From: Desulfuromonas sp. SDB
GTDB taxonomy: Bacteria > SDB-A
Direction: 5' to 3'
Assembly: GCA_001412365.1 (NCBI GenBank)
Contig: LKUE01000213.1
Span: forward strand, 1 to 6,387
DNA length: 6,387 nt
Part shown: piece after piece, positions 1,017 through 6,287 of the stretch
Position numbering within the stretch: the stretch's first letter is position 1
Layout of the letters: each line of letters opens with the position of its first letter
Made by a program: the position numbers and the translations under genes
Notes under the pieces: model-generated
What the model saw: only the letters and a program-made list of their open reading frames with translations
The model's database searches: none
What the model was told of the DNA's origin: nothing

Positions 1017-1817
1017 TCAATTCCCAACGCTTTCGTATCTTCTTAAATTGTAAAACCAAAATTTAACTGAAAAATAAAACAAGCCCAATCCAACTAGCAG
1101 AGTTATCAAGTGAAAGACACCATAATGACCTGCTCGGAGAATTGAAGCGGAGGGGAAAAAGGCGATGAAACTGACCGGAATGATGTAAATTAATACAAAC
1201 CTCAACCAATGAGCATAAATACTCACCGGATATTGGGAAAACTGGACAATTTCCATAAACGGTGTTCCCATAAAAGCAGTGCTCTTAATTTTAAAAGAAA
1301 CCGCCGAGAAAAACAGGAAATAGCTGGAAATCAGCAGGAAACTGCCGGTTAGTGAAATAATTAATTTGAAAAATATGAAAACATCAAAATTTAAGCACAA
1401 CTTAAACCAGCTGTAGGTTAATACCGCTATCCCCAGCACCACTGAATTTATCTCCATAATACTGTTGCCCAGTTCCAAAACAGTTATATAAAACAGAGGA
1501 TTAATCGGGTATTGTCTAATTAAATCTAATTTTCCCCTGATGATGTAGGAATTGGGAAACCATAAGCACCAGGAGAACAGCATGTAGAACAAACCGGTTA
1601 CAATGGTAAAATAACCAAAGATAAACAGCAACTCATAAAAAGACCATCCGTTAATGACCGGAATATAGCTGAATACCACTTTTAGAAAGATAATATTCAG
1701 TGCATTGTACAAGACGATGGTAAAAAAATAGGTAAAAAAATTCACCCGGTCGGCTACAAAATCCTGAAAATTCTTATGGGAAACAGATAGTAATATTTTA
1801 AGATATCTGTTCATCAT
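1017..1817 (-). CDS. ABC-2 type exporter permease (COG3694-like, second permease)
   Basis: This 266-aa integral membrane protein has about six hydrophobic helices (roughly residues 27-52, 60-87, 108-135, 148-174, 205-227 and 233-256). After helix 2 the stretch IIRGKLDLIRQYPINPLFY matches the family pattern of a Gly-x-Leu-Asp turn followed by a Pro-x-Asn-Pro-Leu segment. Near the end, QYPVSIYAHWLRFVLIYIIP and SFIAFFPSASIL match the second conserved block of the ABC2_membrane_6 (former DUF990) family. It would pair with the upstream permease and the ATPase to form an export complex in the cytoplasmic membrane. Translation starts at ATG 1817 or ATG 1814, preceded by GGTGG. The first ATG overlaps the upstream stop as ATGA, implying coupling. 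It is the last gene of the operon. The substrate cannot be read from sequence; characterised relatives include drug, antibiotic and toxin exporters. Confidence 0.85.
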   Translation of the reverse strand: MMNRYLKILLSVSHKNFQDFVADRVNFFTYFFTIVLYNALNIIFLKVVFSYIPVINGWSFYELLFIFGYFTIVTGLFYMLFSWCLWFPNSYIIRGKLDLIRQYPINPLFYITVLELGNSIMEINSVVLGIAVLTYSWFKLCLNFDVFIFFKLIISLTGSFLLISSYFLFFSAVSFKIKSTAFMGTPFMEIVQFSQYPVSIYAHWLRFVLIYIIPVSFIAFFPSASILRAGHYGVFHLITLLVGLGLFYFSVKFWFYNLRRYESVGN

Positions 1818-2614
1818 CCACCAAAAATTACCACTTTGTTGCGAATCCTACGGAAAAACAAACTGGTAATTAAACTTAAGGAAACCGCCCAAACCAGTTG
1901 AATAAAAATACTTATCAGTATTTCATCGGAATTTATCTTGCCTATGAATATTAAACTGGGAATGTAATTTACATAACGGTAGGGGAGTACAATTGAAATT
2001 TTCTCCACCCAGTCAGGGAAAAATGCCAGGGGTACCAGTGCGCCGGAAAGCAGTAATTTCAAGAACTTCTCCAACTGAATAAAACCTTCAATATTTTTAA
2101 AAAAAATACTTAACAATCCCACCAAAAATGAAATATTGTAAGCGATAAAAAATGATAGCTGTACTGATAACAAGAAAAAGATAATATTGAGAAAGCTGAT
2201 TAGATTGATATTGAAAAATACTACTGAAAAAATAAAAACCGGAACACCTATCATTACAAGATTTAAGAATTTTTGAGAATAAAATCTGATAAGATAATAA
2301 CCATACAGATTTACAGGCATTAGAAAATCATAGCCAATGTCTCCGTTTAAAAGCTGATTTTGAATATCATAGGAAACCGATTGAGTGTTAATAAAACTGT
2401 AAATTGCCCAAATTACAACAATATAATTGATCATATCGCTGAAATTAAATCCCTGAATTTGACTTTGCCCGGAAAAAACTGCCGACCACAGGAAGTACTG
2501 GACCGTAATCATAGCTAAAGCTGAAAAGAGATTTAGTAAATAATCCGCCCGATAGGCAAAATTCTCCTTAATATTGAGATCGATCAGCCGGGAATATTTA
2601 CTTACTGTTTTCAT
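1814..2614 (-). CDS. ABC-2 type exporter permease (COG4587-like, first permease)
   Basis: I start this at ATG 2614, giving 266 aa. The open frame continues upstream to 2665, but that would bury 68 nt in the ATPase gene. The shorter start leaves a 17-nt overlap and gives the family-like N-terminus KYSRLIDLNIKENFAYRADYLLNL. No strong ribosome binding site is seen, so coupling to ATPase translation is likely. There are about six hydrophobic helices. LLNGDIGYDFLMPVNLYGYY is the conserved cytoplasmic turn after helix 2. GALVPLAFFPDWVEKISIVL followed by PYRYVNYIPSLIFIGKI matches the late block of the ABC2_membrane_6 family (G-x-L-x-P-L-x-F-F-P-x-W). It is the same length as the following permease, so the two probably form a heterodimeric channel served by the ATPase encoded immediately upstream. 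Confidence 0.85.
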   Translation of the reverse strand: MKTVSKYSRLIDLNIKENFAYRADYLLNLFSALAMITVQYFLWSAVFSGQSQIQGFNFSDMINYIVVIWAIYSFINTQSVSYDIQNQLLNGDIGYDFLMPVNLYGYYLIRFYSQKFLNLVMIGVPVFIFSVVFFNINLISFLNIIFFLLSVQLSFFIAYNISFLVGLLSIFFKNIEGFIQLEKFLKLLLSGALVPLAFFPDWVEKISIVLPYRYVNYIPSLIFIGKINSDEILISIFIQLVWAVSLSLITSLFFRRIRNKVVIFGG

Positions 2615-3599
2615 AGATATTACGGATAATTTCATCCAGCGATTCAGTTTCAAGGTGAAAATCAATTATAGGATGCACCAGATCAATTTCTCTTAACTTT
2701 TTAAACAAGGGTTTTTCCCGGTTAAACTTAAAAATCAAATTATTTTTTTCACAAGTTTCAATTTTTTCGGGTTTAATTATCTTTTCAAATTCTCGGGGGT
2801 ATACAGTTTTTCCCGAACCAAATTCAATTTTTACCAAAATATCCTGCTGGGAGTACTGATCAATGAAATTTTCTTTTTTTCCGTCAAATAATTTTTTTCC
2901 ACGGTCAATTAATATAATCCGGGAAGCAATGTTTACATCATTAGTGTCATGGCTGGTAATAATTATAGTGGTTTTCAATTCCCGGTTAATTCTCTTCAAC
3001 TCCTCCCTGATCTTCCATTTTGCCCAGGAATCCAGACCAATAGTGGGCTCATCCAGAAATACAATTTGAGGAGAATGAAGGAGTATAGCTACCAATTCAC
3101 ATCTTATTCTCTGCCCCAGAGAAAGAACCCTAACTTGCTTTTTAACTATATCTTCTATCTCCAGATTAGAACATAAGAATCCCAGATTCTGCTGGTAAAT
3201 TTTATCTTCAATTTCATATAGATCCTTGAAAAACCGGTAGGTTTCCATAACCGGCAGATTCCAAAGTAATCTTGACCGGTTTCCAAACATGGTCCCGATA
3301 CTCTTTAGTATTTTATTTCTATGCTGGTTATAGGATTGTCCCAGGATTTGCAGATTTCCCGAATCAGGTTGAATTATTCCGGTCAGCATCTTTATTGTTG
3401 TAGATTTACCTGCTCCATTAGGACCAATGTAGGAAACCAGTTCACCGGGGTTGATATCAAAACTGATATCAGTTACTGCTCTGACTAATTGATGCTGGCG
3501 ATGGAATAGGTTTTGTAATGTTCCCTTGAAACCGCTTTTTAAATGGGGAACCTTGAAAGTTTTAATTAAATTTTCCGCTTTTATTACTGGATCATCCAT
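2598..3599 (-). CDS. ABC exporter ATP-binding protein (COG4586 / NatA-like)
   Basis: This 333-aa nucleotide-binding subunit powers the two permeases encoded after it. Visible motifs, numbered from ATG 3599, are Walker A GPNGAGKST (59-67), signature LSLGQRIRCELVAILLH (159-175), Walker B IVFLDEP (179-185), D-loop GLD (188-190) and switch His217 in TSHD. LSLGQ in place of LSGGQ, and the LFHR insertion before the core, are typical of the COG4586 branch. The Q-loop reads MFGNRSRLLWNLPV, so Asn107 replaces the usual Gln (FGQRSQLWWDLPV in relatives). A C-terminal extension of about 85 residues (250-333) follows the catalytic core. An in-frame GTG exists at 3608, but AGGTGA at 3605-3610 lies 5 nt before ATG 3599 and supports the latter. 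It overlaps the next permease by 17 nt. Confidence 0.92.
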   Translation of the reverse strand: MDDPVIKAENLIKTFKVPHLKSGFKGTLQNLFHRQHQLVRAVTDISFDINPGELVSYIGPNGAGKSTTIKMLTGIIQPDSGNLQILGQSYNQHRNKILKSIGTMFGNRSRLLWNLPVMETYRFFKDLYEIEDKIYQQNLGFLCSNLEIEDIVKKQVRVLSLGQRIRCELVAILLHSPQIVFLDEPTIGLDSWAKWKIREELKRINRELKTTIIITSHDTNDVNIASRIILIDRGKKLFDGKKENFIDQYSQQDILVKIEFGSGKTVYPREFEKIIKPEKIETCEKNNLIFKFNREKPLFKKLREIDLVHPIIDFHLETESLDEIIRNIYENSK

Positions 3600-3604
3600 A
3601 CTAA

Positions 3605-3610
3605 TCACCT
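3605..3610 (-). promoter_or_regulatory. Ribosome binding site deciding the ATPase start
   Basis: AGGTGA on the minus strand has a 5-nt spacer to ATG 3599. Its own GTG at 3608 is in frame but would have no upstream Shine-Dalgarno, so the ATG is preferred. Confidence 0.7.
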
Positions 3611-3739: not shown

Positions 3740-5185
3740 TTATATTCTGAAAAAGTAATCAGTATTCAAGTCTTCTTCGGTAGATTCACTGAGAATTTCT
3801 TGGATAGGTTTTTCATTCCCCGGTTGGTAGTAATTTTGTTCGATATAATCAAAAACTTCCGGTTTCAGATAACTTCCGAATTTCCTGTAAATATTTGATA
3901 TTACTTGATTTGAAATTATGTTGGCAATGATATAAGAGTACTCATTGAATGGAAATTTAACATAGCTGACAAATAGCTCTCCCCAGTTTCTCCTTTCTTT
4001 TAAACCAGTCCACTGGTACATAATTTTCTTATATAAATTATCCGCTTCTTTCACCTTAAGTTCTTTTTCATACAATTCAGATTCAAATAAAAATCGAATT
4101 ATATTTCCCAGAAAGATATTATAATTACTGCTGATTATGGATTTAGAAATAATGTTCAGTTCATCTTCATTATCTACATACTGACCTAAACTTTCCGGCA
4201 ATACCAGGAGCTTATCCACTAATCCGGCCATTGCTTCACAGTAGTAGGCAGGAGTTAATTTAAAGATATAATCTTCAGTGTTTATACTGGCTAAATGCAA
4301 GGCATGGCCGAATTCATGAAATAAACAGTACAGATAATCGGACAGAGGTACTTTCGTATTAACAAAAATCCTTATATCATCGGGTATTGAAATATCAATA
4401 CATTCATTGGATTGATTGGATTCTTTAGTTGAATCGGTCTTTTTAAAGGTTATCCCTTTGTAATTTGCACTGATGCCCCATTGATTTAAAAATCCATTTA
4501 AAAGATCATAACCTGAATTAATAGAAAAATACTTACTTGAAACTTCATTGTTATCATTGAAGTTTTTCCTGCTCTCCTTCTGAATTAAATCATTTCTGGT
4601 TATTTTTATCAGTTCATCTTTTAATGAAAATATTATATTTTTTAATTGTTCATAGGAAATATCATCATTTACCAGACAAAGATCTAAAAACGATGAATAT
4701 CCCTGCTTTTTTGACAAGTAATTTCTTCTGTTGATAATATTTAATATCTTCTGCTTATACTGATTAAAAAATTTATCCTTGAGATCTGTATAATGTTTTT
4801 TTTCTTCGGCATTTTCACTGCAATTTATTTTACTCTGTAGTTCCATTACTCCAAATTTTTTCCCTTCAATTTTAACTGCTTTGTCCAGCATCAAATCTGA
4901 TGCCTGCTCAAAAGCAGCATTGATTTCCTGATCATATTCAATCATTTTCCGGGAAAAATAACTTTTTAAAAGCAACCATTTCCGTTTCTCCAATTTATCT
5001 TCTAATTTACCTAAATTTCTGTGGATAAATGAAATTATTTCCCGGTCATAAAAGAATGGTCTGTATTTATTTAATATTTTTTCTCGATGTAAGGGTTCAT
5101 TATTGACCAGATGATCCCAATAGCTAAGATTACATTCCCGATGGATTTTTTCTAATTCAATATTTATATATTCATAACTATTCAT
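3740..5185 (-). CDS. M3-like zinc oligopeptidase (HEFGH...E)
   Basis: This 481-aa protein is without signal peptide or membrane helices, so a cytoplasmic metallopeptidase is likely. The zinc site is HEFGHALH, with His290, Glu291 (general base) and His294. The third ligand is probably Glu317 in YYCEAMAGLVDKLL, 23 residues on, as expected for gluzincins of the M3/M2 type. The C-terminal region (FPFNEYSYIIANIISNQV, then YYQPGNEKPIQEILSESTEEDL) resembles the end of M3 oligopeptidases. The N-terminal 280 residues are helical and charged, consistent with the clam-shell fold that limits substrates to short peptides. It is shorter than typical PepF/M3 enzymes (about 560-680 aa), and assignment to an exact family is uncertain. 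ATG 5185 is preceded by a weak AGAAG. It overlaps by 8 nt the restored reading frame of the upstream acetyltransferase gene, suggesting coupled translation. Confidence 0.8.
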   Translation of the reverse strand: MNSYEYINIELEKIHRECNLSYWDHLVNNEPLHREKILNKYRPFFYDREIISFIHRNLGKLEDKLEKRKWLLLKSYFSRKMIEYDQEINAAFEQASDLMLDKAVKIEGKKFGVMELQSKINCSENAEEKKHYTDLKDKFFNQYKQKILNIINRRNYLSKKQGYSSFLDLCLVNDDISYEQLKNIIFSLKDELIKITRNDLIQKESRKNFNDNNEVSSKYFSINSGYDLLNGFLNQWGISANYKGITFKKTDSTKESNQSNECIDISIPDDIRIFVNTKVPLSDYLYCLFHEFGHALHLASINTEDYIFKLTPAYYCEAMAGLVDKLLVLPESLGQYVDNEDELNIISKSIISSNYNIFLGNIIRFLFESELYEKELKVKEADNLYKKIMYQWTGLKERRNWGELFVSYVKFPFNEYSYIIANIISNQVISNIYRKFGSYLKPEVFDYIEQNYYQPGNEKPIQEILSESTEEDLNTDYFFRI

Positions 5186-5691: not shown

Positions 5692-5910
5692 TTAAGAAAA
5701 GTAAGGGGCAAGTCCCAGGATGGTATGAACAATCGCCAGAATCATGGAAAAAGCAGCCATCCGGGGATGAAGATTATAGGGAATTTTCTTAAAAACCTTT
5801 TTTCTCAGAAAGGGCAATAAAAAGGTAATGGTAAAACTCAACAATACCAATATTCCCAGCCACATCACCAGTGGTTTCCCCAATATAGGAAAATAGGTAA
5901 TTCTGGTCAT
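5692..5910 (-). CDS. Small two-helix membrane protein with H-X13-H pair, putative heme-binding
   Basis: This is a 72-aa protein with two hydrophobic helices (about 13-34 and 50-68) joined by a basic loop (RKKVFKKIP), which should face the cytoplasm. His48 in NLHPRM and His62 in AIVHTILG lie 14 positions apart at the start and middle of helix 2. That is the spacing by which one helix of cytochrome b or ferric-reductase-type proteins contributes one ligand to each of two stacked hemes. One such helix per chain would require a dimer or a partner, so heme binding is an inference. It directly follows the b5 lipoprotein. The stop and start share one base (TGATG), and AAGGAGG at 5915-5921 sits 4 nt before ATG 5910. 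The ATG at 5913 is too close to that site. I do not recognise a named family. Confidence 0.7.
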   Translation of the reverse strand: MTRITYFPILGKPLVMWLGILVLLSFTITFLLPFLRKKVFKKIPYNLHPRMAAFSMILAIVHTILGLAPYFS

Positions 5911-6287
5911 CATTCCTCCTTGATTTCACCGATATAGTATTCTTTTAAACGGTCCCTGGCTCTATCCGAGTGGGGGGTGCCTGATCCCATCGGTCTGGTT
6001 TCAAATAATTCAGTTGCATCTATTCCGCAGCCCTCTAAAATTGCTTTTCCTCCGGGATGAGAGGAAATAAAAGGAGTAACATCGTAAACCTTGCCTTCAA
6101 TAACCAGCCAGCAGTCACCTTGATCACTGTGAGCCTGAACATCTTCCAAGGTATAGAAGGTTACCTGTTCAGCGGTATAAGTTGATTCTCCTGGTTCCTC
6201 ATTATTTTCAGCGGCGGCTTCCTGTCCACTGCAGCCGCTGGATAAAATTACTGCTAAAATCAATCCGATTAAAACGAATCTAATCAT
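5910..6287 (-). CDS. Lipid-anchored cytochrome b5 domain protein
   Basis: This 125-aa protein is exported and lipid-anchored. A short hydrophobic signal (residues 2-18) ends in LSSGC with Cys19 as the likely lipidated residue. A 20-residue acidic/polar linker (20-40) follows, then a cytochrome b5 heme-binding domain (about 43-122). Heme ligand 1 is His77 in the HPGG motif (77-80). Ligand 2 is probably His106 in TPHSDRARDRL. FYTLEDVQAHSDQGDCWLVI and GKVYDVTPFI are typical b5 strands. Cys59 and Cys87 are both in the exported domain and could form a disulfide. The protein would be an electron carrier on the outer face of the cytoplasmic membrane, and the membrane protein encoded next is its likely partner. 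ATG 6287 has GGGAGGT with a 4-nt spacer and a clear promoter upstream. No biochemical partner reductase or oxidase is visible in the window. Confidence 0.9.
   Translation of the reverse strand: MIRFVLIGLILAVILSSGCSGQEAAAENNEEPGESTYTAEQVTFYTLEDVQAHSDQGDCWLVIEGKVYDVTPFISSHPGGKAILEGCGIDATELFETRPMGSGTPHSDRARDRLKEYYIGEIKEE
5915..5921 (-). promoter_or_regulatory. Strong ribosome binding site for the two-helix membrane protein
   Basis: AAGGAGG lies inside the last codons of the b5 gene (Lys-Glu-Glu). It has a 4-nt spacer to ATG 5910 but only 1 nt to ATG 5913, which decides for the shorter 72-aa start. Confidence 0.75.

Follow-up and report, generated by a model that had tools for sequence, protein, structure and literature searches.

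A 72-aa protein of two transmembrane helices, encoded by a gene that overlaps the gene for an exported cytochrome b5, is likely kin to half a ferric reductase domain (FRD); paired as a homodimer, it would form a diheme wire to the co-translated b5 and, in other lineages, to other exported domains. Both genes lie on the minus strand of a 6,387-nt stretch of DNA from Desulfuromonas sp. SDB (the window). We base this reading on an invariant H-X13-H pair and an invariant Gly19, on similarity to FRD hairpins, on a charged inter-helix loop, on the partner genes found across a family of 27 members, and on two gene fusions.

An overlapping gene pair in the window

The upstream gene (5910..6287, minus strand) encodes a 125-aa protein with a cytochrome b5 domain at residues 46-122 (PF00173, E = 3.4e-22), whose closest solved relatives in the PDB are cytochrome b5 type B and 1cxy (E from 6e-19 to 3e-18). 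Beyond the profile match, its membership of PF00173 is reflected in two axial ligands: His77 within an HPGG motif (codon 6057..6059), invariant in 7/7 relatives, and His106 (codon 5970..5972), present in all five b5 proteins that are paired with a hairpin gene. Two cysteines invariant among the same seven relatives, Cys59 (codon 6111..6113) and Cys87 (6027-6029), point to a probable disulfide, in keeping with a location outside the cytoplasm. The preliminary description had named this protein a b5 lipoprotein. While the b5 part of that name stands, lipidation is plausible only in the window, which encodes a probable lipoprotein with Cys19 (codon 6231..6233) as the candidate site, and in one other genome (G001); in G306, G424 and G521, the b5 protein carries a signal peptide or an N-terminal anchor but lacks the lipobox cysteine.

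The downstream gene (5692..5910, minus strand), referred to here as the mini-cytochrome b gene, was delineated from its open reading frame, the family alignment and an AF2 model (mean pLDDT 90.9) with helices at residues 14-38 and 47-71. His48 (codon 5767..5769), a candidate inner, loop-side heme ligand, lies near the beginning of helix 2, and His62 (codon 5725..5727), a candidate outer ligand, follows 14 residues on in the same helix. Helix 1 contains Gly19 (codon 5854..5856), and the loop between the helices (5773..5805) is positively charged, at net +5. The two-helix reading frame with His48-X13-His62, as originally described, is thus borne out by direct reading of the sequence and by the modelled helices, and so is the overlap of the two genes. 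Stop and start share positions 5910..5913, and the junction, GAGGAATGATGACC, constitutes either a TGATG overlap giving the 72-aa protein or, from an alternative first ATG at 5913, an ATGA overlap giving 73 aa.

The overlapping pair recurs: across five genomes from two distant families (G000, G001, G306, G424 and G521), a window-class b5 gene overlaps the mini-cytochrome gene by 1-4 nt, corresponding to 5/27 members. Given that b5 domains were detected in 44/386 genomes, such pairing is too rare a coincidence to be ascribed to chance. The link to b5 is real but lineage-specific, and always takes the form of overlapping genes. Elsewhere on the minus strand, the window encodes a divergent M3/M32-like metallopeptidase with an HEFGH motif (3740-5185; Pfam marginal, 25.4 bits against a cut-off of 25.1) and, at 1017-3608, an ABC-2 exporter set in overlapping order, consisting of an ATPase and two ABC2_membrane_6 permeases.

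Family members and probable kinship to the ferric reductase domain

A single-sequence search with the 72-aa protein returned two relatives, one 83% identical, from the same taxonomic family as the window genome and likewise located behind a b5 gene, the other 39% identical and without b5. A family profile grown in rounds of 3, 7 and then 20 sequences matched 13/386 genomes at E ≤ 0.01 and 16/386 at E ≤ 0.001 in a domain-wide sample, as well as 14/198 genomes of one phylum at E ≤ 0.001. The resulting 27 members comprise 20 sequences in alignment A4 and seven more; an ordinary FRD-like protein of 222 aa (L095), a one-helix match with an internal stop (L097) and, save for G353 and G103, the weak matches of one profile search were left out.

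When homologs were checked for both histidines, as the preliminary description had proposed, none was found to lack either: H-X13-H is present in 27/27 members, a biased estimate of retention given that His-bearing members went into the later profiles, and both residues were already kept in the first, single-sequence matches. Across the 20 aligned members, the farthest of which are ~20% identical, His48 and His62 are invariant. The same holds for Gly19 (20/20), which may play a role like that of the heme-facing Gly of cytochrome b; the residue 14 positions past it is Gly in 11/20, Ala in 4/20 and Pro in the window. A survey of 760 transmembrane segments predicted in the loci under study found H-X13-H in 23, all of them from b-type cytochromes or family members.

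No Pfam or NCBIfam model covers the 72-aa protein. An NCBIfam match of one member to spo_II_M (E = 6e-4) was taken as hydrophobic noise, and a Cytobacillus match from the genome contig search was spurious, spanning 33 residues within an unrelated open reading frame. Plasmid searches returned no match to the family, and searching PDB sequences with the family profile yielded nothing meaningful. Structural comparison of the two-helix hairpin (Foldseek/VIA) gave no E below 4; hairpins of b561 (Z 3.8) and b6 (Z 3.2) were retrieved, yet unrelated hairpins scored higher Z.

Profile comparisons pointed to the FRD. Weak matches to PF01794 (Ferric_reduct) occurred in 14/20 members (best E 4e-5), with the window member at 14.6 bits (E = 0.035), below the gathering score of 28 bits. 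Using hhalign, the family profile aligned to FRD hairpin 1 with 89% probability (score 33.4, 58 columns) and to FRD hairpin 2 with 86% probability (score 31.7, 57 columns), while the best of 40 control trials each with locally shuffled profiles scored 18.0 and 24.3, respectively. The two FRD hairpins scored 25.0 against one another.

The inter-helix loop bears a net charge of +2 to +6 in 20/20 aligned members, with termini near 0, and a weaker one (0 to +5) in the seven extra members. From this positive loop, the mini-cytochrome probably adopts a topology with the loop inside and both ends outside (N-out/C-out), consistent with the exported domains that are fused to the N terminus in two members (G309 and G258). 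NOX proteins have their TM2-TM3 and TM4-TM5 hairpins oriented out-in-out, with the loop inside. The heme histidines of FRDs lie on TM3 and TM5, those of NOX2 forming the pairs 101/115 and 209/222 (PMC3591440).

The family therefore resembles the FRD (PF01794; NOX, FRE, MsrQ/YedZ) in a second-helix His pair 14 residues apart and in a loop that faces inside, and both FRD hairpins align over most of its length. Given this likeness in His spacing, helices and orientation, a homodimer of the window hairpin could rebuild the FRD diheme core. Unlike the FRD, with its four heme histidines on two helices of one chain, the family consists of one hairpin with one His pair per chain and no FAD/NAD domain, so that a dimer would be required to provide four histidines.

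Other cytochromes share some of these traits. FezC and DUF4405 proteins (PF14358) are likewise small b-type cytochromes with H-X13-H, but DUF4405 proteins carry their positive charge at the termini and have the opposite predicted orientation, and they match the family profile over the His helix only (52% probability). With PF14358 matching 1/20 members (E = 0.0056) and not the window protein, membership of DUF4405 was rejected. FezC, moreover, is tied to ferrosomes, unlike the present family with its exported redox domains. Stand-alone two-helix DUF4405 proteins of 71-101 aa, with H-X13-H and the opposite predicted orientation, were also observed in the loci (L108:1462-1677, L113:1399-1704, L116:1453-1692, L117:1465-1707).

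In the cytochrome b6/b core, as in the proposed dimer, two hairpins with two ligand histidines each sandwich two hemes, but all four helices and both His pairs reside in a single chain, as opposed to two helices and one pair in the family; the window protein gives a sub-threshold Pfam match to the C-terminal part (PF00032, E = 0.028). Fusions of DOMON to b561 or FRD, the latter of which have been reported (PMC3591440), similarly combine an exported heme domain with a transmembrane diheme protein, yet in one chain with more helices rather than in separate genes with one hairpin. Designed CytbX is also a minimal four-helix diheme membrane protein, but it was created de novo as a single chain and has no natural homologues (PMC10120048). 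Since the defining features of both FRD and DUF4405 were tested for and found lacking, the family is set apart from the two, while we still claim that it works like them.

Exported partners of the hairpin

An invariable association of the hairpin with b5, as considered in the preliminary description, fails, b5 accompanying 5/27 members only. An exported redox domain of one kind or another adjoins or is fused to the hairpin in 17/27: b5 in five, a superoxide-reductase-like protein in eight, DOMON in two, and a cytochrome c and a YHS fusion in one each. Three further members have cytosolic redox neighbours, namely a peroxiredoxin (G371), a ferredoxin (G437) and an FMN dehydrogenase/rubredoxin (G451). 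The earlier concern that the small protein might occur without any redox partner applies to the remaining 7/27, which have no redox neighbour (G088, G228, G409, G418, G177, G167, G020).

The superoxide-reductase-like neighbours are exported and encoded on the same strand (G353, G436, G487, G510, G545, G454, G569, G253). Their assignment is based on Pfam matches with E between 9e-8 and 6e-4 in five genomes, and on weaker matches or alignment only in three. They have His57 and Cys107 in common with canonical desulfoferrodoxin, and an AF2 model of one such protein matches neelaredoxin structures (E = 2.5e-7). Paired genes of this type lie at L079:4639-5010, L081:5119-5484, L082:4521-4973, L129:4067-4405, L075:2381-2731 and L077:3261-3599; some of the paired proteins retain H..H and CNxHG, others are without the last His. 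A membrane wire supplying an exported superoxide reductase would be an unusual arrangement of superoxide defence.

DOMON neighbours on the same strand were found in G103 and G397 (E of 1e-12 and 2e-15). In the first of the two fusions (G309, L126:2515-3075), a signal peptide and an exported CxxCH cytochrome-c-like domain precede the hairpin; in the second (G258, L125:4197-4679), a signal peptide and a YHS-like domain do so. A multicopper-oxidase-like gene is located upstream of the cytochrome-c-like fusion in L126.

In G011 (L028:225-1740), a window-class b5 gene overlaps a complete FRD-FAD-NAD reductase gene, implying that the hairpin occupies the place held elsewhere by a full FRD. G052 (L046:527-1944) encodes, directly before a multi-b5 protein, a four-helix protein in one chain, two of whose helices carry H-X13-H (DUF4405-like, E = 9e-5). 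Judging from the variety of partner genes (b5, superoxide-reductase-like, DOMON and others), the hairpin seems to be an all-purpose wire whose exported outlets can be exchanged.

A proposed electron wire and its alternatives

In the mechanism that we propose as the most likely, two copies of the hairpin would pair in the membrane to form a four-helix bundle that holds two stacked bis-His b hemes, one between both His48 on the cytoplasmic side and one between both His62 on the outer side. The hemes would lie ~20 Å apart (arithmetically, 14 residues x 1.5 Å). Electrons would cross the membrane singly, with the outer heme acting as reductant or oxidant of the exported b5; in other lineages, the same hairpin would serve a superoxide-reductase-like, DOMON, cytochrome c or YHS domain. 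As to the inner electron donor, a quinol is a guess. A minimal diheme homodimer wire to or from the exported b5, as initially put forward, finds support at the sequence level in the retained histidines and the 17/27 exported domains; from there, we infer heme binding, the homodimer, electron flow and its direction, and an inner donor that may be quinol or a cytosolic reductase. Precedents exist: heme binding with b6-like spectra is known for the AB hairpin of cytochrome b6 on its own (PMC5730185), and FezC, which binds heme b, has been modelled as a homodimer (PMC11334425).

Heme supply in the host counts against the diheme wire. No ferrochelatase was found in the host genome (G000, 98.7% complete), though it encodes a b5 protein, nor in 23/26 genomes tested, and no exported CxxCH protein was encoded within the 570 kb of G000 read. 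The same 570 kb contained one radical SAM protein, which could not be identified as AhbD.

In short FRD proteins, among them MsrQ/YedZ, the outer heme is probably the only one in use (PMC3591440), and the window pair has no adjoining reductase gene. By analogy, the hairpin might bind one heme or give part of the ligands, forming a heteromer with a membrane cytochrome encoded elsewhere. We consider this rather unlikely, as both histidines are invariant in the family whereas the inner one is Arg in MsrQ/STEAP (PMC3591440), and as no other FRD-type membrane gene adjoins the hairpin gene in the loci read. Quite improbable, too, is a role in handling heme (or iron), in which the two histidines would shuttle heme through the membrane and deliver it to the exported b5 or DOMON domain rather than conduct electrons. 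The hairpin's b5, DOMON and cytochrome c partners all require heme outside the membrane, but the partner met most often (8/27) is a non-heme iron protein of the superoxide-reductase-like type, heme is not required by the YHS and ferredoxin neighbours, and H-X13-H together with FRD similarity is a signature of bis-heme electron transfer. It is barely credible that the hairpin, despite being about as long as one FRD hairpin, is a decayed, functionless fragment of a ferric reductase gene: differences between the window gene and its 83%-identical homologue fall on codon positions 1/2/3 as 15/8/39, indicating purifying selection on the 72-aa protein, residues are invariant across distant lineages, the gene overlap is conserved and the hairpin recurs in 27 genomes.

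Membrane b cytochromes put together from hairpins, homodimers included, are known already. In the open-access literature, we found no description of a family of FRD halves whose exported partners vary, nor of its pairing with b5. That the family scores higher against the FRD hairpins (33.4 and 31.7) than these do against each other raises the speculative, on balance unlikely, prospect that it preserves a half-sized homodimeric state, ancestral through duplication and fusion to the core of FRDs and NADPH oxidases (perhaps also of cytochrome b), and serving as a wire into which many exported redox domains can be plugged; alternatively, the family may have arisen by secondary loss from a full FRD.

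If the homodimeric diheme wire is real, few natural transmembrane electron wires would be smaller (~55-75 residues per chain). Its exported partner would be interchangeable, and it is unannotated in Pfam and NCBIfam. It would also be a natural counterpart of designed membrane cytochromes, and would provide a concrete, expressible model for how single-chain diheme cytochromes may have originated through hairpin duplication.
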